From: Saccoglossus kowalevskii
Lineage: Eukaryota; Hemichordata; Enteropneusta; Harrimaniidae
Assembly: GCF_000003605.2 (NCBI RefSeq)
Contig: NW_003150756.1
Coordinates: 58,557 to 80,335 of the forward strand
DNA: 21,779 nucleotides
Direction of reading: 5' to 3'
Below the pieces are notes generated by a model. It ran no database searches, had not been told where the DNA came from, and saw nothing but the letters and a program-made list of their open reading frames with translations. Within the stretch, counting starts at the first letter, position 1. Each line of letters opens with the position of its first letter. The translations under genes were made by a program, and so were the position numbers. Below, in pieces: positions 1,609 through 21,227 of this stretch.

Positions 1609-4020
1609 CTACAAAGACAATATGCAAGACAATATTTCAGTAAAAAAGAATAATTAAGTAGTATTTTTAGACACAAAAGTACCTACATGGTTAATAAGTG
1701 ACATAGAACCTACTTTATTAATAACCAACATAGGACCTAACCAATTAATGACTGACATAGGAACTACCTGATTAATAACCAACATAGGACCTAACCAATT
1801 AATGACTGACATAGGATCTGCCTGATTAATAACTGACATAGGACCTACCTGATTAATAACTGATAAAGGACTTGCCTGATTAACAGCTGACATAGGACTT
1901 ACCTGATTAGTAGCTGCTAGATCTACTCTTCTGCCAAGTACACTCTGTTTCAGTTTCAGCCCTTCTTTTTCCATATCACTCATTAGTTCAGCTGGATTGG
2001 AAGAAGGACCCGCTAGGTCGTAGGTAGCAGATTTGTTGAATAATGGACACTGTAAATCAAATTTAGACAGATGTACTCTACTGCAGTTTATCCCAAATAA
2101 CCTTGGTAAATGTTGGATTTCTTTTTACTTAACCCAACACATGGAATATACCTCAATCACTGGTACACATTTATCATTCATTTGACAGTGTAAACAATTT
2201 TCTGTTTGAAATGTTATCTTCTGTAACTTTTCATAATTTTTGCTCATGTGTGATTTGTTCACCTATCTAGGCAAAAAATTTGTTTGGACTTAGTTTTCAA
2301 CTGTTTATGACATATTTTCACTATCAGCACTTGTTTTCTCTTGTATGAGCTAAATTATGTCGGCATGTTCATGCATTCATGATCACTGACGTCACATTCA
2401 AACACTTCTATTTGTTTACCATGAATTCAGAAGCGCTATAGTGCATCTGAGTAAAATAGAATGTTGTCACTAAACACAGCGCAAATTGTTTTTTAGTTGC
2501 AATTTCAGGCTATAATCTCATTAAATTATTACTATGTGTCATTTGATACAATCGCCGCTCTCCCTTCTTGCATAATTTGCAGTATTCTCTCCACTGTTAA
2601 CTTGAGACTGGCTTTCAAAATATGTTCATCGAAAAAATGCATTACAAACAAAAACTTATGAAGTACCTCTTTGTCAGTGTTTACGTGGCCCCATTTATGA
2701 CACTTGATACATTTCACATTTCGAACTTGGATACCAAATGGTTGATCACGGATGTCCAATTCTTTTGCATAGGCTTGTCTCGGAGCTCCTCTCTGCCATT
2801 CAAACTTATATTCAGGTTCGTCATCTTCTCTTACTTTGTCTTTCTTCACTCCTTTTGGCGGCTCATACATAAAATTCAATCCATGTTTTACTTTTTCATC
2901 ACTCAGTAGTAGTCTTTGGATAGAAAAATATTTGTGTTTGCATTGGTGGATACCGTAAAGCAGCCATAAAATGTTGAAAAAATCAAATCCAATACGATGC
3001 TAAAGACACTGGGAACATACGATTCATAGCGTACAAGTGTGTGATAGAGCAGTAAAGCAATAACTAGCTCTTTCAGAAAAATTATTCGCCATCTAACTAA
3101 TTTCACACACATTTCATAACCTCTCGTACACAAAATGACATTGAAAACACAGAAAATACTAACATTATCCATTTTGAACATAAAGTATACATTGTATGAG
3201 AGCTGAACTACATTTTACCGATTTTTGTACAAGTCTTGTTCTTTTTCGTATTCTCTTTTTAATTCCTCCTGTTGTTTAGTTTCATGCTCAATTTTCTGCT
3301 CTCTCATCCATACCTGTTGATGTACAGAAAGATGGCAATATTGTGATTATAAACTTTTTAACACTATTAACACAAATGACAGACGTTGATCTAGTCTTTC
3401 ATGTACATATTGGTAGTATCTTTGGCCTCAGATATATCATCCCTAAAGTCACTGTTCCAGTCATATGTTCACTGCTACTCATTTTTGTGATTTTTCAGCC
3501 TGGACTATGCTAAGAGTGATTGGACAGAAACAAACACCGTATTACTGATTTTGAAGGTTTCAGACGATGATTAAATTTAATAATTTGTGCTTCCATTACG
3601 TTACCAAACTGTTTTAATTCTATAATTTCTATTATTTTGAGCAACAATAAGGCCCTGGACTAGATCATAGTGGTAATCAGAACAAAGTTATAGACCCATA
3701 GACATGTTACTACTGAATTCATCAATCAACCACACGAATAGATTGTCAGGCCTCGTGGTTCTACCGCCAAACATTTAAGTAAGCCAGGATACGCACAATT
3801 GATAAGTCAATCTCTAGTAAAGATTACATGCAAGTATTGAGTTGAGGTCGAACTAGCCCTGTGAACAACATACATTTTATACGGCTACGGTCGGACACGT
3901 TTATTTTTACATGTAAGAAATTCGAGAATAGTGTTCGTCAAAACTCACCCGTTTTACGTTAGCATATGAAGCAGGATGAAAATCCTTTTTACACATAAAA
4001 TTTGCGAATGACTTTCCCAT
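1523..4020 (-). CDS. CIR1: CIR1, corepressor interacting with RBPJ (CBF1-interacting corepressor), five exons, 3' end outside window
   Basis: CIR1 is a nuclear protein that links the Notch effector RBPJ/CBF1 to histone deacetylase corepressors and also associates with splicing factors. Five minus-strand exons (4020-3949, 3313-3219, 2913-2667, 2049-1903, 1608-1523) join in frame to 215 codons plus two bases. The protein opens [18 protein letters not shown], the CIR N-terminal domain. Next comes an acidic/basic helical stretch, then [26 protein letters not shown] and the zinc-knuckle-like CxxC...H...C ending [12 protein letters not shown], then DEEDPEV and [15 protein letters not shown]. All are hallmarks of the family. 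All junctions are GT-AG and phases agree. The lysine/serine-rich tail expected next is not recognisable before position 1, so the gene is cut by the window. It is divergently transcribed from OXNAD1. Exon 4 ends inside a 27-bp repeat array. Identity is firm; the C-terminus is unseen. Confidence 0.93.
1676..1914 (-). repeat. 27-bp tandem array spanning the CIR1 exon 4 splice donor
   Basis: About nine copies of a 27-bp unit lie head to tail. On the minus strand the consensus is roughly ATTAATCAG|GTAGGTCC, then TATGTCAGTT. The first copy includes the last codons and authentic donor of CIR1 exon 4. Later copies carry GTAGGT, GCAAGT, GCAGAT or GTTAGG at the same position. Being 9 codons long and stop-free, the array stays open in the CIR1 frame, encoding variants of VINQVGPMS. 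See findings. Confidence 0.9.
1903..2049 (-). CDS. CIR1: CIR1 coding exon 4
   Basis: The acceptor TTTACAG is followed by [41 protein letters not shown] and AATNQ. The exon ends at AATCAG|GTAAGT (phase 0). CPLF and the ELM..M...G..LK..VLGR block are family hallmarks. The last codons (ATNQ) are the first unit of the 27-bp tandem array in the following intron, and the frame stays open through that array to 1654. Confidence 0.92.
2667..2913 (-). CDS. CIR1: CIR1 coding exon 3, zinc-knuckle region
   Basis: This exon begins AAAG|A CTA CTA and encodes [20 protein letters not shown], then [20 protein letters not shown], then [20 protein letters not shown] and WGHVNTDKE. It ends at GAG|GTACTT (phase 0). 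The CxxC and the histidine of the knuckle are here and the final cysteine opens exon 4. This is the most conserved part of the protein. An internal ATG at 2879 is not the real start. Confidence 0.94.
3219..3313 (-). CDS. CIR1: CIR1 coding exon 2
   Basis: A CAG acceptor is followed by [20 protein letters not shown] and more charged helix, ending AAT CG|GTAAAA (phase 2). The arginine is completed by the first base of exon 3. It matches the VWM..QK segment of the CIR N domain. Confidence 0.92.
3949..4020 (-). CDS. CIR1: CIR1 coding exon 1
   Basis: The start codon reads from 4020 and begins [12 protein letters not shown], the conserved CIR1 N-terminus. The exon has 24 codons ending ...NVKR at an AAACGG|GTGAG donor (phase 0). 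The start fits because family members begin at this exact motif. Confidence 0.93.
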
Positions 4021-4281: not shown

Positions 4282-4355
4282 ATGTCGACGATAAGAATAA
4301 CCACAGCTTGGACAAAGATCACACGTTTTACTTTTCCCCGTTTTCCGGTTTTCAG
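4282..4355 (+). CDS. OXNAD1: OXNAD1 coding exon 1, mitochondrial presequence
   Basis: The ATG at 4282 opens [20 protein letters not shown] then FPVF, and ends TTC AG|GTACTT (phase 2). It is basic, hydroxylated and free of acidic residues. It joins in frame to the acceptor at 4970, forming an arginine codon. It was found by phase and composition, not by similarity, so it is less certain than the other exons. Confidence 0.75.
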
Positions 4356-7300
4356 GTACTTCTGTACATATTTATGCAAATCAATTCAGTAATTGAGTTC
4401 AGTCGAAGGATGATTCGGTGCACCACAGTTACTATAAGTAACCATGGGTACACATTGGTGTTCTGAGGGTCATTCCATTTTTTTCACCCCCCCCCTACCT
4501 TTATGACACCCTATGGATTCAAATCCACCATTCAGGTGTCGGATTTTTGTTAACTAACACATCCCTTGGAAACTTTACTGATTTGACGTATACGGATGGG
4601 TATGTGAAAAAATTAAATATATCAAAAATATGTGACCTCTCGAAATTAAACCATCCATATTTTTTGTAGAAATATGACCCCTCGGATTTAAACATCCGTA
4701 GGGGGTGGACCAAAACTTGAGTGACCCTCTGTGGCTCGTTCAATCATGGAGCTACCTCCATGGTTCAATCAAGTCCATTGACCCATGAAGTTTGAACCGT
4801 AAATCTGGGTTAAATAGAGTATATCCAGGTGTTTCTTTATAGATGTTATTGTTGGAGAAAACATATATGATAAAATGACTGAATTGAAATATATTTCTAT
4901 TTTGGCACATAAAAAAGCTGTTCTGTGACAGAGTTACAGTAATTGTATTGTCTGAATGTATGGATTTCAGATTTAAGATGAGTCAAAGTGAACCAACTGA
5001 TGCAGGACCAGATCATCTACAAAGAACATCACACAACACAAGAAACCCTGTGAGTATTCAGTACTAGTATATTATTCTTGTTGCAAGAACTTTATTACAG
5101 CTTTGAAACTATGACAAATGAAGGTTCAATACTCTTGGTGCAACAAAGACATTCTCTTCATCTTTATAAATATTTATAAATTTCAATGCCAGTTGAATCA
5201 AACTAGCCAATCAACAAGAACAGTCCACCACAACGTCGTCTGCAAATGTTCCAATGTTTTTTCAGCCAACAGAAACCTCTCGTTTCAGTTAGAATTTTAA
5301 ATTTTTAGTTTTTTAGTAAATTCACATGTGTATTTTCTAAAAACATGTGAAAAGCATAAAACACTGTTATCTGAAAATAAAATGCTACTGTCAGTTCATA
5401 AACTAAAACCTAAGTCTGAATTCTCGAAATTGATCCATAGAAATGCAGGCCTAAATTCTGCATCATTATATTATCGTTTCTTTCACATTCCAGACTGTGA
5501 CATCAGCTGTAGTGACCAGTATACGACAGGAATCAGAAACCGTGAAAGGCCTAACACTCAAAATAGAGGACAAAGACTTTACCTTCAAAGCTGGTCAATG
5601 GTAAGTATCATCTGTACAGCATCCATAGTTTATATGCATTTATAAATTGCTTTGTGTGAACTTTGACACTACACAGCATCATTTCGACATTCTTTGAAAT
5701 CTTTTGTTAAGTGGGAGGGATGTCACCTGCGCACACGCAGAATTGAGTCCCAAGCGATGTTAACAACACACCTTAAAAATGCAAAGGCTCATGGGTAGAT
5801 GCTTGTTTGTAAACAATGACACGCTATGGCCATCTGACGCATGCGCAGGTGACAATCAGTTTTCCAAAATCAATGAAAATTGTTTATTATAATATTTAAA
5901 GAATTGTCCTTTTTTTCATTTTTTATAAAATTCTGCCAAAAAACAACAAACTGTAACATGCACATTTTTAACTGATAGGCATATCTAGGCCTAATAAATA
6001 AAATTAATAAGATATTTCCAGAAGTATAAATAACTTGTATAAATAAGTTTTACATAAAGAACAATTTGAAACATTCCTCAAAATTGTTATCATTGTGAGA
6101 AGTTGTGACCTGTGACCTTTGACATATTCACAGGGTTGACTTCTTCATTCCGGGTGTTGACGTATTCACAGGGTATTCAATGTGCTCTTCCGCCAAAAAA
6201 CTGAAAGACGAAAACCTCATGGATTTAGCTATTAAATATAGCGACTACCCTCCCACTGAATGGGTTCACAAAGAGGTAATACAATTTGTTTTTTGTATGC
6301 TTTCCCAGGGTGGATTTTTTCATTCCTGCTGTTAGTGTAGTGGGAGGCTACTCAATGTATTCAACACCTCAGACATTAAGAAAGCACAAGTTGATAGAGC
6401 TGGCTGTTATGTACAGTGAACACCCTCCTGCCTATTGGGTGCACACTCTGGTATGCTTTCTGTTTTACCCTATTCACCCCCTGTGTATTTCATATACAAA
6501 TGAACTGCTACAATGTACAAATTTCTGAATTGATGTCAAAACTCAATTTAAACACTGTAAAGGGAGCTAGTCATTCTAATTGCATCTTTTAAGATAGAAT
6601 CTCAGATTATTAAAACAAACAATCAATTTATTACAATGTATCTGGTACTGTAAAATACTTTATTTTTACTGGAATTAATTTTCGCTTAAAAGTCTTTTTT
6701 GGTGTTTTGTATAGAATTTATTTTCACTGATTTTTGACTAGCTGAATGTAAAATATAGGAAAAACGGTATATTTGCTGGTTTTTATTTTCACTGAATCAT
6801 ACCTTCAGCGAAAATAAATTCCAAGCGAAAATAAAGTATTTTACAGTATACATAAATGTTTCATTTTGGGTTTCCTTCTAACGTGTAATCACTGCCCTCA
6901 TATTCAGTCACAGTCTTTAATATTTATACTTTTGTTTTTTCAACATGTATTTTTTTAGTGTCAAGAAGGTAGTGAAGTATCCATTCGAGCAGGGGGTGAT
7001 TTTTATTATGACCCACAGCCGACTGACTCCACCACAGATGTCTTACTTATAGCAGGTGGTGTAGGGATCAATCCCTTGTATTCTATGTTCTTGCATAACG
7101 CAGATCTACACCAAAGAATGAAAGAAAACAGTGATTCATACAAACCAGGGAAGACTACACTTTTATTTAGTGCAAGTAATCACAGTGAACTCATCTTTAA
7201 GGTTTGTACATTAAGTCATAATAAACTAGTGCGCCCTGCCCTCTATTGGCAAAAAAATATTTTGACATATTTGTTTTTTTCGTTGTGCTTTTTAATTATT

Positions 7301-8346
7301 TGTAAATTCTTACTCTGACAGAAATCCATTTTAGAACTCTGCAAGAAAACACCTAATATGAACTGTCAATTTTTTGTTACTAAAGAAAAGCACAAAGATA
7401 ATTTTGGATCAGAAACTTCAGGTATGTGAATAAAACAATACAAAGAGTTGGGTTAGGAGTATGAGGGTGGGGTGGGGTGAGTTGGGCAGTGTTCAAATGT
7501 CTTACCACAAGTCTTTTTTCTTAGTATAGTTAGAATCATTTAACTGATCCATAGTTAATTTTGTATATACATATTCATTATTTCAGGTACATTTGGAATG
7601 AATTCATTTATAATGTTGATCAAAAACTGTTGGTACTGGTATTTCAGGGGGGGGTACAAATTGACGATCTATGAGAATTTCTCAATCACCCCCCTCCCCT
7701 CGAAAATTGCAAACAGTTGTCACTGAAATTCAAACAAAAAAATTTTTGAAACTGAGATTTTCTCAGGAACGAACATTTGGGCATTTTCTCTGCCTGGCAA
7801 CCACAACCATTAAAAACAATGGTTGAAAATTCTCAAAAAAAAAAACAGTACTTTGGAATTGTTGTTGAGACTCTCTTGGACAGGGTAACCAGGGTACCCT
7901 TACATGTGCAACATTTATAAATGTAGGTGTCTCTCATAGTTGGATTTGTGCTGTTTACACCAGCTCTTTGACTGGCGTTCCACAGCAGCTCGCACAGAGC
8001 CCATAGAAATACACATGGAAAAGTGGTGCACATCTCAGCAACATAGAACATTCAGTGGCGTTGCTGCGACCACAAGAATATAATTTGAAATTTTGACCTT
8101 CAGGTGGTCATGCATGTGGCATTTGACAATATATTAGTATCAGATATTTTCAATATGTGTTATTTTTTTTTTTTTGTAGTTGGACGTATCAATAAATCTG
8201 TACTGAAAATGGCCCTTGAAGAAATGAAGATTGACAAAGTAAAAATTTACATCTGTGGACCAGCTTCGATGATTGGTGACATAGAATCAATATTGCATTC
8301 TCTCGGTGTGAATCCCAAACAGATTGCATATGAAAAATGGTGGTGA
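4282..8346 (+). CDS. OXNAD1: OXNAD1, oxidoreductase NAD-binding domain-containing protein 1, with duplicated alternative exon 4
   Basis: OXNAD1 is a mitochondrial ferredoxin-NADP reductase-like oxidoreductase with a flavin-binding barrel and a C-terminal NAD-binding domain. Its substrate is not established. Coding exons are 4282-4355, 4971-5049, 5494-5600, then either 6134-6275 or 6309-6450, then 6959-7201, 7322-7421 and 8180-8346. With one alternative exon they total 912 nt, or 303 residues, close to vertebrate OXNAD1. The first 24 residues are rich in Arg, Thr and Phe and lack acids, fitting a mitochondrial presequence. Visible motifs are FKAGQW-VDFFIP, the flavin-binding GYS, DPQP, the nucleotide-binding [18 protein letters not shown] and the terminal YEKWW. 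All junctions are GT-AG with matching phases. AATAAA signals lie at 8391 and 8428. The gene shares a promoter with CIR1 and converges on the sialyltransferase gene. Confidence 0.93.
4461..4734. mobile_element. MITE with about 35-bp inverted ends, in OXNAD1 intron 1
   Basis: The left end (CTGAGGGTCATTCC, then pyrimidines and a C tract) is the inverted counterpart of the right end (GGGGGTGGACC, then CTTGAGTGACCCTCTG). No coding capacity is visible. Related subterminal motifs such as ATGTGACCTCTCG and ATGACCCCTCGG repeat inside. The superfamily is unassigned. Confidence 0.65.
4971..5049 (+). CDS. OXNAD1: OXNAD1 coding exon 2
   Basis: The acceptor GATTTCAG is followed by (R)[20 protein letters not shown], then HNTRNP, ending CCT|GTGAGT (phase 0). 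DHLQRT resembles the DHMERT segment of vertebrate OXNAD1. ATGs at 4960 or 4978 could serve as alternative starts without exon 1, giving a form lacking the presequence. Confidence 0.85.
5494..5600 (+). CDS. OXNAD1: OXNAD1 coding exon 3
   Basis: The acceptor CATTCCAG is followed by [29 protein letters not shown] and TFKAGQ(W), ending CAATG|GTAAGT (phase 2). This is the first strand region of the FNR-like barrel. The split tryptophan codon needs a G from whichever exon 4 is used, and both candidates supply it. Confidence 0.92.
5707..5862. mobile_element. TTAA-type MITE copy 1, in OXNAD1 intron 3
   Basis: This copy is inverted relative to the copies at 9689 and 15946. It starts TTAA then GTGGGAGGGATGTCACCTGC and ends CGCATGCGCAGGTGACAATC, with the shared core TTGTTTGTAAACAATGACAC and GCTATGGCCATCTGACGCAT. 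The right terminus is eroded and lacks TTAA. Confidence 0.8.
6134..6275 (+). CDS. OXNAD1: OXNAD1 alternative exon 4a
   Basis: This 142-nt exon follows the acceptor TATTCACAG and ends AAAGAG|GTAATA. It encodes [40 protein letters not shown] and TEWVHKE, the flavin-binding portion including the GYS motif. It is 24/47 identical to exon 4b and has the same length and phases. A second ATTCACAGGG at 6164-6173 is a possible cryptic acceptor but would shift the frame. The frame and both splice sites are intact. Confidence 0.9.
6309..6450 (+). CDS. OXNAD1: OXNAD1 alternative exon 4b
   Basis: This 142-nt exon follows the acceptor TTTCCCAG only 33 nt after exon 4a and ends CACTCTG|GTATGC. It encodes [40 protein letters not shown] and [15 protein letters not shown] is closer than exon 4a to the vertebrate OXNAD1 sequence at this point, so this is probably the ancestral-type exon. 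Confidence 0.92.
6646..6849. mobile_element. MITE with about 43-bp terminal inverted repeats, in the OXNAD1 intron after exon 4b
   Basis: The left end TACTGTAAAATACTTTATTT, continuing through TTTCGCT, is inverted at the right end as AGCGAAAATAAATTCC, continuing to AAAGTATTTTACAGTA. TA flanks both sides, suggesting a Tc1/mariner-type duplication. It is about 200 bp and non-coding. In RNA it can fold into a long hairpin, starting 196 nt after exon 4b. Confidence 0.75.
6959..7201 (+). CDS. OXNAD1: OXNAD1 coding exon 5, nucleotide-binding core
   Basis: The acceptor TTTTTTAG is followed by [20 protein letters not shown] and [20 protein letters not shown], then a charged helix and [16 protein letters not shown]. 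It ends AAG|GTTTGT (phase 0, 81 codons). AGGVGINPL is the family's nucleotide-binding loop. Confidence 0.94.
7322..7421 (+). CDS. OXNAD1: OXNAD1 coding exon 6
   Basis: The acceptor TCTGACAG is followed by [20 protein letters not shown] and [13 protein letters not shown], ending TCAG|GTATGT (phase 1). FVTK matches the strand before the last helix of the NAD domain. Confidence 0.9.
8180..8346 (+). CDS. OXNAD1: OXNAD1 terminal coding exon
   Basis: A long T tract and GTAG acceptor precede [20 protein letters not shown], then [12 protein letters not shown], and the C-terminus IAYEKWW with TGA at 8344-8346. YICGP and EKWW are diagnostic of OXNAD1. Polyadenylation signals AATAAA follow at 8391-8396 and 8428-8433. 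Confidence 0.94.
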
Positions 8347-9688: not shown

Positions 9689-9852
9689 TTAAAGCGAGAG
9701 AGTCGTCACCTGCTCATGCGTCAGATGGCCATAGCGTGTCATTGCTTACAACAAGCGTCTACCCATGAGCCTTTGCGTTTTCAGCGTGTGCTGTTATCGT
9801 CGCTTGGGACTCAATTCCCGCGCTTGCGCAGGTAATGACCTCCTCGCTTTAA
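9689..9852. mobile_element. TTAA-type MITE copy 2
   Basis: A complete copy of about 160 bp. TTAA flanks both sides (9689-9692 and 9849-9852), with inverted ends AGCGAGAGAGTCGTCACCTG and CGCAGGTAATGACCTCCTCGCT. TTAA target duplication is typical of piggyBac-type transposition. There is no coding capacity. Confidence 0.85.
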
Positions 9853-10024
9853 CAATTTCAACCGGATATGTCATTGGAATGTGACCACTAAATTATAATT
9901 GTAGAATAATATATTCGAATGTGAAATTAAAGAACTTTGTGTATAATCAACTTGCGTAAAAATTCAAATTCATACTCTATTATAATAAAAAAAATCTATT
10001 GAAACCGTATCCTAGTGTGGGATT

Positions 10025-10275: not shown

Positions 10276-10520
10276 TTACAATCCGTTAGTGTGGCCGCAT
10301 TTCCCAAGATGCAGCTTGACAATGCCTCGATTATGAAGCTCTAGGAGGTTTTGCATTTCCCATCCCATATTGTGGGCGCATACAAACACTTCATCAAATC
10401 CAGAATCACCAGTGTAATGATAAGGTAATGCATTTCCATCTATGTCTGTGTTAAACGGCCAGAATCCAAACAGATGAATCTCCTCGCAAAGTGGCAATCC
10501 CATAGTTAACAAAAGCAATC
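10276..10520 (-). CDS. Sialyltransferase terminal exon with motifs S, III and VS
   Basis: The acceptor TTTTTCTCAG precedes (G)[19 protein letters not shown], then [27 protein letters not shown] and [13 protein letters not shown], with TAA at 10276. The catalytic histidine and glutamate of motif VS are present. Reading through the upstream intron would give a spurious continuous frame. Confidence 0.95.
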
Positions 10521-12393
10521 CTGAGAAAAATAAAATAAATGAAACACGATCAAATGAAACACATATGGAATGTATATAAAATTGCAACGAATCAGATTTC
10601 TCACCTGATGAAACAATTTTCTCAACCTTCCAAAATCTTCTCACTAAACCAAGATAGTCTCTATTGAGAAGCAGCAGATCTAGTGAGGTGTTCTTTTTTA
10701 TGTGATTCATGGCAGGAACAGTGAAATTTGGCGTTGAAGTAAATAGTATATGACCTTCATATTCCTCCAAGGCTTCACTGAATGCACTCATACTATAATT
10801 GAATCTAGAGCATAGGCGGGTAACGTTACTAACATTATGAAACTATACAGAGTCGAATTATAATTACTATTTTAATCATATACTAGTACCTGTAGTATAT
10901 TAATGTGCTAAAACAATAACAAAGTCTCTCCAAACCATATCCAAATTATTAGCCGAGATCCAGACAGCAAAGGTCCTAGTCCAATGATACTTATACAATG
11001 GTACTCACACATAAACACATAACATGTCAAACGAGAAAAATGAAGTTTTGGCATACAAACGGGAAGTTATCACAGTTGATATATATTAAACGTATATTTC
11101 ATAAAGTTCTTTGAAAAGTACTAGTATACGTCAGATTAACGTTACAACGACTTCTTTATTATTTAAGTTGAAACATCGCTAACTTTTTATTACCTGTTGT
11201 AAATTATACTTGGATTGAACGTAGTTAGATTCATACTCCTCCCTGCATCATGTGTAAAATTACGAATCACTGGAAGATTAGCTCTAGGAAAGAAGTACAA
11301 CCACATTATATCCGATACACTTACTAAGTTGCCACGGCAGCTGCGAATTACGAGAGTTTGCGGTGATAGCGAGTATTAACGATAATGAACTCCCCAATCA
11401 AAAGCAATGACATTTGAAATACATTCATTTTATGAATGAAAATATTGACATGGAGTACCTCAAAATAAGATCAGACTTATCGATTTCATCTCCACATCCA
11501 CTGTCCTTCAGTATACCACCATTACCCACAATGCTACAGCGCCTGTAAGTACTTCTTTCGGTAGGCGATTTGTTCTGCATAGACAGTATACACATTTTAA
11601 TGGAGCGAATGATGCTCCAGATTCTTGGTATTGTGTGCTACGATTTACAATGCACAAAATTACCATGTGGTGATTATATATTTACACTACGTGAATACCA
11701 CGTAGTATATCGCAAAGACGCACATACGTACCAGAAACATCTTCTGAGAACTGAGGCTTGCATTCGAACTTAGATAAAACTGTGTACTATTTGGCATAAA
11801 GCCATTTAACTTATTTCTGTAAGAAACGACGAGGTACTATGAATGCGTTTAAAAATGTGCAAGTGACACTAAGCGGTAAGTGAAAATAAACAAAAGTATG
11901 AATCAATTTTTTCGATTCTCACCTCAAGTCATACAGATGTATTTTATTGGATTTCCAGTTATTTATATCATTTACCGTGTTTTTCATTTGCCCAAGAGTG
12001 GTCTTATTTGCTGCAAATGTCGACTGATTTGTACTAAATTACAAAAAAAAAAACATTAATAAACTAACAAAAATATAGAAATTTACATTTACAGTAGAAT
12101 TCATTAAAAGAGTTTGTTTCTTAATTTTCGAAATTGGACAATGTCTATTTACCCGTCAAACATTATGGCATCAATGGCAAACAACATAGTAACATAATAC
12201 AGTTGCTTCTGCTACAGGCGAAGCGATGTGTGTCACAACTGCTTATATTGTCTACAACTATATTGACGTTTAGGGTACGCACCTTATATTGTGAAAACCT
12301 AGGTAACTACGTTTACATCGCTGGTAAGCTCTTTTTGTATCTGCATCTTCCTTTTCAAGATCACTCATCTTTGCATTGTTATGCCCTTTTTTC
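10276..12393 (-). CDS. ST8Sia-type alpha-2,8-sialyltransferase, six exons found, N-terminal exon missing
   Basis: This is a family GT29 sialyltransferase, a Golgi type II membrane enzyme that moves sialic acid from CMP-sialic acid to glycans. Minus-strand exons are 12393-12283, 12033-11923, 11542-11459, 11283-11194, 10792-10605 and 10520-10276, about 275 codons. All four sialylmotifs are present: L ([20 protein letters not shown], then NLP...TTFNPSII), S ([20 protein letters not shown], then GFWPF), III (HYT) and VS (HNMGWE). The paired cysteines of L (SGCGD) and S (LPLCEE), the Cys before VGN and a C-terminal LGKC are all there. The first four introns are phase 2 and the last is phase 1. Several N-glycosylation sequons occur in the stem. 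The short cytoplasmic tail and membrane anchor must lie upstream (above 12393) and were not located. Motifs favour ST8Sia over ST3Gal or ST6Gal, but the linkage and subtype are not determinable. Confidence 0.88.
10605..10792 (-). CDS. Sialyltransferase exon between motifs L and S
   Basis: The acceptor AATTATAG precedes (S)[19 protein letters not shown], then [15 protein letters not shown] and [13 protein letters not shown](G), ending TCATCAG|GTGAGA (phase 1). The FWK..K..SSG run leads into motif S. The ATG at 10791 is internal, not a start. Confidence 0.9.
11194..11283 (-). CDS. Sialyltransferase exon, second half of motif L
   Basis: The acceptor TTTCCTAG precedes (R)[19 protein letters not shown], then [10 protein letters not shown], ending AACAG|GTAATA (phase 2). 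NLP and TT.NPSI are canonical for the ST8Sia motif L extension. Confidence 0.93.
11459..11542 (-). CDS. Sialyltransferase exon with sialylmotif L
   Basis: The acceptor ACTTACAG precedes [20 protein letters not shown], then DKSDLIL(R), ending TTGAG|GTACTC (phase 2). This is the CMP-sialic acid binding motif L with its invariant cysteine. Confidence 0.95.
11923..12033 (-). CDS. Sialyltransferase stem/pre-L exon
   Basis: The acceptor GTAATTTAG precedes [20 protein letters not shown], then [16 protein letters not shown](R), ending TTGAG|GTGAGA (phase 2). The NKTTLG segment resembles the NNTPLG stretch that precedes motif L in ST8Sia enzymes. Confidence 0.8.
12283..12393 (-). CDS. Sialyltransferase stem exon
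   Basis: The acceptor TTTCCTGCATAG opens a 111-nt stop-free stretch encoding [20 protein letters not shown] then [16 protein letters not shown]. It ends ATA AG|GTGCGT (phase 2). It joins the next exon to make a serine and the sequon NIS. The stem region is poorly conserved, so support is frame, splice sites and position. Confidence 0.65.
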
Positions 12394-15945: not shown

Positions 15946-16108
15946 TTAAAAGCGGGGGAGTCGTCACCTGAGCATGCGTCAGATGGCCATAGCGTGTCAT
16001 TGTTTACAAACAAGCGTCTACCCATGAGCCTTTGTGTTATCATGTGCTGTTATCATCGCTTGGAACTCAATTCCCACGCGTGCGCAGGTGACGACTCTCC
16101 CGCTTTAA
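15946..16108. mobile_element. TTAA-type MITE copy 3
   Basis: A complete copy flanked by TTAA at 15946-15949 and 16105-16108. Its ends are AAGCGGGGGAGTCGTCACCT and AGGTGACGACTCTCCCGCTT, nearly perfect inverted repeats of about 30 bp. It has the same orientation as copy 2. Confidence 0.88.
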
Positions 16109-16270
16109 CAAGGCTTCCGCGTAATACAATAAAAACAGTATTAGAAATGGGGTTTGACATGATAGCAAACACAAAATATTAATAATGCTCCGTCAATTTA
16201 AAATATGCCAGTGAAACGTTTGCTACTCCTATGTTCAAAATTACTTAATGGTATGTGAATACTATCATAG

Positions 16271-16412
16271 CAGGAGCGGATTTAGAGGGGTGCCGAGGGG
16301 GCCGCCCCCTATTTTTAACCCCCCGCAAGGCTTCGCGCCATCGTCGCTCGCGAACTAGACCTTCGGCCAACTTATCGCCCCCCCCTATTCCAGAATCCTA
16401 GATCCGCCCCTG
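16271..16412. mobile_element. Short MITE with CAGGGGCGGAT ends and CATAG target duplication
   Basis: The left end CAGGAGCGGATTTAGA is inverted at the right as TCCTAGATCCGCCCCTG. CATAG occurs directly on both sides (16266-16270 and 16413-16417). The interior is GC-rich, with CGCGCCATCGTCGCTCGCGA. I recall similar CAGGGGCGGAT termini in many invertebrate genomes. Confidence 0.8.
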
Positions 16413-16417
16413 CATAG

Positions 16418-17187
16418 TTCATATATCCTGGCACAGGATAAATTTATTAAAATATTAGCAGACTATTGTAAAACCTGGAATCTTGATGTGAATGTTAAGA
16501 AAACTAAAGTGATGATATTCAACACAAGTAACAGAGTACTGAAAAACCAAACTTTTATTATAGATGGTAAAAACATAACACCAGTCAAGGAGTTCTGTTA
16601 TTTGGGTATGATATTCACTCCGAATGGAAAATTTAAAACAAATCATTGTATGCTAAAAAATAAAGCAATAAAGACATTATTTGCCATTAGACAAACTATA
16701 CTGAGTCATAAAATGATTTCAACTTCATTGTGTTTAAAATTATTTGATCAGAAATTTGCTTCCTTAAAACATAGACAGTACTACTATACTGTCTATGCTT
16801 AAAATAACATATTAAAATATGCATTAAAGCTCAGACTAGTAATACAATTACAAGTATACAAAATAATTCTAGTACTGGTACCTGGGATACTCAAATAAAA
16901 ACAATTTTTGGAGAAAATAACTTGTCTAAAATAAAAGAAACTTACAAGGTCAACAATATTAATCAACTAACCAATGTTGTAAAAACAAAGCTAACAAATA
17001 AATTTATTCAATCATGGAGAAAACAATTAAATAAAAAAGAGGGGAACAAACTTAGAAGATACAGTATTTTTAACAAAAATTTGAATTGGAAAATTATCTA
17101 AATGGAATTGAATTGGGAAGAAAGAGTAAACCAAAAACCCCAGAAAATGAAAGAACTTGCAAAAAATGCAATTCAGATCAAATTGAT
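16418..17187 (+). pseudogene. Decayed non-LTR retrotransposon (LINE) fragment, reverse transcriptase C-terminal part
   Basis: The frame encodes AQDKFIKILADYCKTWNLDV then NVKKTKVMIFN, FCYLGMIFTPNGKF and KAIKTLFAIRQTILSHKMI, typical of the end of LINE reverse transcriptases. It stops at 16800 beside a perfect hairpin. Related coding continues in other frames: NLSKIKETYKVNNINQLTNV, KFIQSWRKQLNKKEGNKLRR, then after a frame change near 17094 NGIELGRKSKPKTPENERTC and KKCNSDQIDYY, the start of a C-terminal CxxC zinc ribbon. The rest is replaced by an (AAT)n tract. The left edge abuts a MITE. This is an inactive remnant. Confidence 0.85.
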
Positions 17188-20943: not shown

Positions 20944-21225
20944 ATTACTTAAAAAATACTGACCAATTCTGCCATTTTCCAATAAGGGACCAAAGCTTAT
21001 TTTCTCTGGATACTGTATGTATTTCTTACGTCTATGTACTGAGTATGGACTGTATAGATTGGGAAGGAGCAGTAGCACTTCAGCCGTTTGCACACCAAGT
21101 CGCGGGACACTGTAGCATGATGAAATTTGACGACCAGACTATATGTAAACCATTGATATCAAGAGAATATAATTTTTATGAATCGCTACCCAACGATATA
21201 AGTCAATTTACTCCGCAATACAGAG
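20944..21225 (+). CDS. IP6K: IP6K, inositol hexakisphosphate kinase, first coding exon (gene continues beyond window)
   Basis: IP6 kinases phosphorylate inositol hexakisphosphate to the pyrophosphate InsP7, a signalling metabolite. An acceptor with a long pyrimidine tract (TTTTTTCTATTCTAG, 20943) opens the exon, and the coding start ATG is at 21045. The first 60 residues read [40 protein letters not shown] and [20 protein letters not shown]. The exon ends AGAG|GTACGT (phase 1). HQVxGHxSMM, KPLISRE, FYESLP and FTPxY are signatures of animal IP6K1-3. The catalytic PxxxDxKxG motif lies in later exons off the window. The invertebrate gene is probably the pre-duplication orthologue of vertebrate IP6K1/2/3. 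The 5' UTR carries two upstream ATGs. Confidence 0.92.
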
Positions 21226-21227
21226 GT

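Follow-up and report, generated by a model that had tools for sequence, protein, structure and literature searches.

A tandem duplicated exon pair in the OXNAD1-like flavoprotein gene of Saccoglossus kowalevskii, with probable mutually exclusive splicing enforced by spacing

The stretch of Saccoglossus kowalevskii DNA analysed here (21,779 nucleotides of contig NW_003150756.1, referred to as the window) contains a complete OXNAD1-like gene on its plus strand (4282-8346). The gene comprises seven coding exons, the fourth of which is present twice, as exons 4a and 4b (Table 1). The first coding exon, which is in frame with the rest, is an addition to the gene model of a previous sequence-only reading of the same DNA. 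It encodes a protein start that resembles a mitochondrial presequence, with six basic and no acidic residues among the first 27 by charge count; the enzyme is probably mitochondrial. Apart from the gap between the twin exons, the six introns of the gene measure 120-758 nt.

Table 1. Coding exons of the OXNAD1-like gene, the gap between the twin exons and candidate branch adenosines for exon 4b
Feature	Positions in the window	Strand	Remarks
Coding exon 1	4282..4355	+	joins exon 2 in frame through GT-AG sites; ends AG/gt; recovered in the protein search of the animal's own genome
Coding exon 2	4971..5049	+	gene model
Coding exon 3	5494..5600	+	ends ...FKAGQ(W); strongest U1 pairing of the seven donors, -11.0 kcal/mol
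Coding exon 4a (alternative)	6134..6275	+	ends ...EWVHKE
Gap, 4a donor to 4b acceptor	6276..6308	+	33 nt, pyrimidine-rich
Coding exon 4b (alternative)	6309..6450	+	ends ...YWVHTL
Coding exon 5	6959..7201	+	NAD-binding domain (PF00175) begins here
Coding exon 6	7322..7421	+	gene model
Coding exon 7	8180..8346	+	stop codon 8344-8346; ends ...YEKWW
Candidate branch adenosine for 4b	6268	+	TTCAC, perfect yUnAy inside exon 4a, 41 nt from 4b; inferred
Candidate branch adenosines for 4b	6283..6284	+	+8/+9 of the 4a donor, 25-26 nt from 4b; inferred

Several other features surround this gene. A gene on the minus strand (1654-4020), which we take to be CIR1-like, stands head to head with OXNAD1, with about 260 bp between the two start codons. 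It is adjoined by a 27-bp tandem repeat of 8.7 copies (1681-1916) that could be translated, in the minus-strand open frame 1654-2124, into a recurring unit of 9 residues. Further along the window lie a sialyltransferase piece (10276-10842, minus strand; Pfam Glyco_transf_29, 1.7e-11) and an exon at about 21045-21226 that presumably belongs to an inositol hexakisphosphate kinase-like gene. Up to an E-value of 0.01, Pfam returned no family for the two CIR1-like pieces, the kinase-like piece and the frame 16359-16802. The intron between exons 4b and 5 harbors an element of about 200 bp with inverted ends (6646-6848), near full-length matches to which occur on many contigs at 81-93% identity among the 40 of 3750 candidates scored; its features suggest a repeat of MITE-like kind. 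A second dispersed element is found three times in the window, in both orientations (5740-5853, 9691-9855 and 15949-16111), and pieces akin to it lie on three further contigs. Elsewhere in the same genome, the mitochondrial contig (L030, contig C4830 of the assembly) carries COX1 on the strand opposite ND1 and COX2, presumably an unusual gene order for a hemichordate. Its ND1 and COX2 frames have ATA at isoleucine sites, AAA at lysine sites and AGA at serine sites of the homologues, a codon usage that fits the mitochondrial code of a hemichordate. A promoter common to the CIR1-like gene and OXNAD1 is possible; the human OXNAD1 promoter is described as being common to DPH3 (PMC4742151, available text).

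The identification of the gene as OXNAD1 agrees with what had been proposed from sequence. Both predicted isoforms match the Pfam NAD_binding_1 family (PF00175, 2.4e-16), and the isoform containing exon 4b (isoform B) is 43% identical to human OXNAD1. No Pfam flavin-domain model was matched by either isoform up to an E-value of 0.1. A scan of prokaryote contigs, with the two isoforms and human OXNAD1 aligned as the query, used two peptide patterns and yielded 112 matching stretches, seven of which were confirmed as homologues (30-35% identity in the best segment). All seven come from entries titled Dehalococcoidia, SAR202 or Chloroflexi. The same scan with isoform B alone returned no homologue among 31 stretches, and a scan of viral contigs found no relative. 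In the PDB, a profile of six of the bacterial homologues finds its nearest solved relatives among flavohemoprotein reductase domains and among NADH-cytochrome b5 reductases (1gvh, 3.1e-23; 2eix, 1.8e-22). Homologue L003, modelled with AlphaFold (mean pLDDT 78.3), matches the same structural families, its flavin loop (residues 47-56) being the only listed stretch with a pLDDT below 50. The layout of OXNAD1, in which an FNR-like flavin domain precedes the NAD-binding domain, is recovered, with the FNR fold predicted for the bacterial homologue. The gene shares with OXNAD1 and the FNR superfamily the NAD-binding domain, a YS motif and, in its bacterial homologues, the FNR fold. It differs from the superfamily at the arginine of the FNR motif, which is replaced by glycine in human OXNAD1 and six bacterial homologues, by alanine in the seventh, by glycine in exon 4b and by threonine in exon 4a. 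To our knowledge, no reaction has been established for OXNAD1.

Exons 4a and 4b form a tandem duplicated pair: they are neighbouring, homologous and compatible in length and phase. Each is 142 nt long, in the same phase, with intact GT-AG sites (4a: acceptor cacag/G, donor GAG/gtaata; 4b: acceptor cccag/G, donor CTG/gtatgc). Their products agree at 24 of 47 residues and their DNA at 87 of 142 positions; the coordinates, lengths, phase, intact sites, gap and protein identity announced by the sequence-only reading were all reproduced. By codon position, the agreement amounts to 31/47, 38/47 and 17/47 for the first, second and third. Chance similarity can be set aside: in an ungapped six-frame comparison within the window, the best non-self match to 4b is 4a, with a BLOSUM62 score of 130 as against 22 for the next segment.

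That the pair is an artefact of the assembly, or a collapsed paralogue uniting two gene copies, is scarcely conceivable, and nothing was found in its favor beyond the duplication itself. The two exons are too different for this explanation, at just 87 identical nucleotides, and a single set of flanking exons serves both copies. A search of the animal's own genome (572 Mb, 4830 contigs) with isoform B gave eight matches at E ≤ 1, none of them outside this locus, and each exon, 4a and 4b included, accounts for one; no paralogue, allele or retrocopy showing a spliced form was found among the seven candidates scored at this threshold. The artefact was rejected on the exon divergence and this lack of a second locus. 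At the DNA level, no second copy of the twin exons was found among the 40 of 3750 candidates scored, the remaining matches being repeats.

Inclusion of either 4a or 4b alone leaves an open protein of 303 residues. When both are included, a stop is reached at codon 143, which is codon nine of exon 4b; when both are skipped, at codon 118; and when the 33-nt gap is retained, at codon 154. The claim that the frame tolerates neither both exons nor none is thus borne out, with one qualification: on paper, 4a could be joined to 4b in frame through 27 GT-AG pairs, each using one or two cryptic sites, and the frame rule by itself does not bar every combination. The acceptor sequence of 4a, GACATATTCACAGGGT, is repeated nearly exactly within exon 4a as GACGTATTCACAGGGT (6118-6180). 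The AG ending at 6171 in this repeat is a cryptic acceptor candidate, use of which would drop 38 nt and lead to a stop at codon 108.

Since double inclusion and gap retention both terminate early, they might be regulated, decay-targeted products that tune the level of OXNAD1. This explanation is very improbable, as a poison exon does not require a conserved 47-residue homologue of its neighbour, and the gap is shorter than the shortest of the spliced human ultrashort introns named in the available text of PMC8363638 (43-65 nt).

The pair is more readily explained by an either/or choice of exon that its spacing enforces. The threshold proposed for steric exclusion is a distance of about 50 nt between donor and branch point (PMC7969005, available text), and here the entire gap measures 33 nt. 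For comparison, 20 introns of the S. kowalevskii genome, estimated from neighbouring myosin-head matches, are all at least 108 nt long; this sample drew on 53 of 56 match rows (three plus-strand rows omitted) and on pairs with a profile gap of at most 12 positions, and would miss tiny introns read through in one match. No perfect yUnAy site is present in the gap, which contains one partial match, GTAAT (A6279), overlapping the 4a donor. Up to 60 nt from the 4b acceptor, a perfect yUnAy is found only at A6268 inside exon 4a, with AGs after it at 6272 and 6274. U2 pairs best in this range at A6259 and A6260, also inside 4a (-1.8 and -1.7 kcal/mol, 49-50 nt away). A6283 and A6284 pair slightly less well (-1.4 kcal/mol) and have an AG-free stretch up to the 4b acceptor. 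The sequence-only reading had concluded that the gap leaves no room for a normal branch point. As an argument from spacing this stands; the absence of the motif carries little information, because a perfect yUnAy occurs 18-45 nt upstream of only two of the six other acceptors of the gene (those of exons 5 and 6), four lacking it. It is the 33-nt spacing that carries the argument. Any branch site for 4b has to fall on the 4a donor, upstream of it or no more than 33 nt away from it. A 4a-4b splice between the main sites is therefore very unlikely, and the exclusivity through spacing combined with frame that was first suggested withstood the tests made.

The following course of events may be proposed. 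Coding exon 4 would have been duplicated in tandem and both copies retained. U2 recruited for 4b would have to sit 33 nt or less from the 4a donor, on the donor itself (+8/+9) or inside exon 4a, and would clash with U1 bound at that donor, which would make 4a-4b joining through the main sites impossible or very poor. Any leaked 4a-4b product would be frameshifted and probably removed by nonsense-mediated decay. The choice would then be a competition between 4a, with the less pyrimidine-rich acceptor (0.64, as against 0.77 for 4b) and the second-weakest of the seven donors in U1 pairing (-6.7 kcal/mol), and 4b, with the pyrimidine-rich acceptor and the weakest donor (-4.2 kcal/mol). Neither exon is superior on every splice-site measure, which is compatible with a regulated choice. 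One gene would in this way make two OXNAD1 isoforms of 303 residues, identical outside a segment of 47. In an overlapping variant, the choice is likewise exclusive but depends chiefly on regulators or on RNA structures that compete with one another, and spacing plays a lesser part; competition between RNA structures has been described as a way of controlling exon pairs of this kind (PMC9013439, available text). This variant is rather unlikely, as the spacing would be sufficient alone.

The comparison of synonymous and nonsynonymous substitution proposed in the sequence-only reading was run between 4a and 4b and gave no sign of a relic: dN is 0.37 and dS 2.61 (Nei-Gojobori with Jukes-Cantor correction), the latter being near saturation and only roughly known. 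In a neutral simulation with the 55 differences placed randomly, the mean number of identical residues was 14.7, as against 24 observed, and the fraction reaching 24 was 5e-5. Fourteen positions of the exon are invariant in human OXNAD1 and six bacterial homologues; 4a retains 12 of them and 4b 11 (binomial test against the neutral retention rate, 4.1e-5 and 3.8e-4). At the 20 positions invariant in the six bacterial homologues alone, the counts are 13 and 12 (0.002 and 0.0075). These counts and the structure alignment used six of the seven homologues; the seventh, L008, was omitted as it has X at some residues. L008 has alanine at position 99 and retains the lysine at 121, and Gly99 would drop from the invariant set were it included. 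The family-invariant residues that have changed are Gly94 and Lys121 in 4b, Gly99 in 4a and Ile103 in both. Residue 103 is a methionine common to both exons, and an isoleucine in the human protein and the bacteria; this is consistent with a duplication that postdates the divergence from vertebrates, a single residue being thin evidence.

These results bear on the alternative that a single copy is in use, the other being a silent or cryptic exon that still looks intact because decay has not yet set in. The weak 4b donor and the less pyrimidine-rich 4a acceptor would be in line with it, as would the alteration of each exon at two or more family-invariant residues, one of them common to both. It is nonetheless improbable: synonymous sites are near saturation, yet both copies retain their splice sites, their frame and 11-12 of the 14 invariant residues, and 85% of the neutrally simulated sequences carry a stop. 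Neither copy resembles a decaying relic. In its substitution pattern and its retained invariant residues, the pair bears the imprint of purifying selection, a signal that averages over the time since duplication, so that a recently silenced copy would look identical.

Exon 4 corresponds approximately to residues 34-81 of the L003 model, which comprise the first helix of the flavin domain together with three strands. In the alignments, its YS coincides with the Y-S/T of the FNR motif; Lys121 matches the lysine of strand 5 in 2eix. The assignment of the exon to the flavin-binding segment, previously made from the YS motif, is in agreement with this position within the FNR-fold flavin domain of its relatives. 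The positions of 2eix were related to the numbering of human NADH-cytochrome b5 reductase by an assumed correspondence. The OXNAD1 equivalents, 99, 100, 101, 102, 119, 120, 121 and 128, are those of eight residues listed among the FAD-interacting ones of the human reductase by docking: Arg91, Pro92, Tyr93, Thr94, Val108, Ile109, Lys110 and Ser127 (PMC3355021, available text). According to the alignment, four of the eight differ between 4a and 4b: 99 (T/G), 120 (I/V, conservative), 121 (K/M) and 128 (T/A). The proportion becomes 5/11 when Gly124, Lys125 and Met126 are added as 125-127; Tyr112, Phe113, Phe120 and Gly123 were omitted from the comparison, as the loop length differs. Such residues are reported to be almost always kept between the isoforms of human exon pairs, the figure in the available text being 80.6% (PMC9741552), and the OXNAD1 pair appears to vary its cofactor contacts beyond the usual. 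Threonine at the FNR motif arginine in 4a and loss of the strand-5 lysine in 4b are expected to result in a different affinity for flavin or NAD(P)H, or in a different use of acceptors, rather than in one dead isoform.

Tandem duplicated, mutually exclusive exons are well described in general. ACOX1 and OXNAD1 belong to different protein families. Human ACOX1 is nonetheless a close parallel, as a flavoprotein with a tandem duplicated exon pair in which a homologous alternative segment of similar size lies at the FAD site. This segment is reported to conserve 28 of 55 residues and all five predicted FAD-binding residues (PMC9741552, available text), unlike the OXNAD1 pair, with its four differences in eight contact-equivalents by alignment. 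As to spacing, the OXNAD1 pair resembles exons 4a/4b of OGDH and rat Tpm1, where the branch site is less than about 50 nt from the upstream donor, namely 25-41 nt for OGDH and 41 nt for Tpm1 (PMC7969005, available text). It differs from both in that its entire gap measures 33 nt and its candidate branch sites fall at +8/+9 of the donor or within the upstream exon. In a 2017 census, possible steric interference is given for 57 of 629 human clusters of mutually exclusive exons (PMC5740500, available text), and OXNAD1 is absent by name from its main text. No description of a mutually exclusive or duplicated OXNAD1 exon pair was found in the available text of the open-access literature searched, in keeping with the earlier statement that no such pair was known. 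The passages found to mention OXNAD1 together with mutually exclusive exons concern an event labelled AA and no exon pair. Titles and opening lines of abstracts on mutually exclusive exons in amphioxus, hemichordate or flavin contexts, or on exonic branch points, showed no comparable case.

Taken as a whole, the locus very probably holds an OXNAD1-like, probably mitochondrial flavoprotein gene with a duplicated exon 4, both copies of which are kept and are predicted to be spliced in a mutually exclusive manner enforced by spacing. A more specific proposal, tentative and more doubtful than not, is an either/or switch in which the 4b branch site overlaps the donor or the coding end of 4a, and in which 4a (Lys and Thr on the FAD side) would specify an NAD(P)H-efficient reductase and 4b (Met and Ala) an NAD(P)H-poor or acceptor-shifted one. 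The 33-nt spacing offers a natural test of the proximity of branch site and donor at which splicing ceases. A natural exchange of exons that alters the cofactor pocket alone would likewise amount to a built-in experiment, as comparison of the two isoforms would show which properties of the enzyme the animal tunes.
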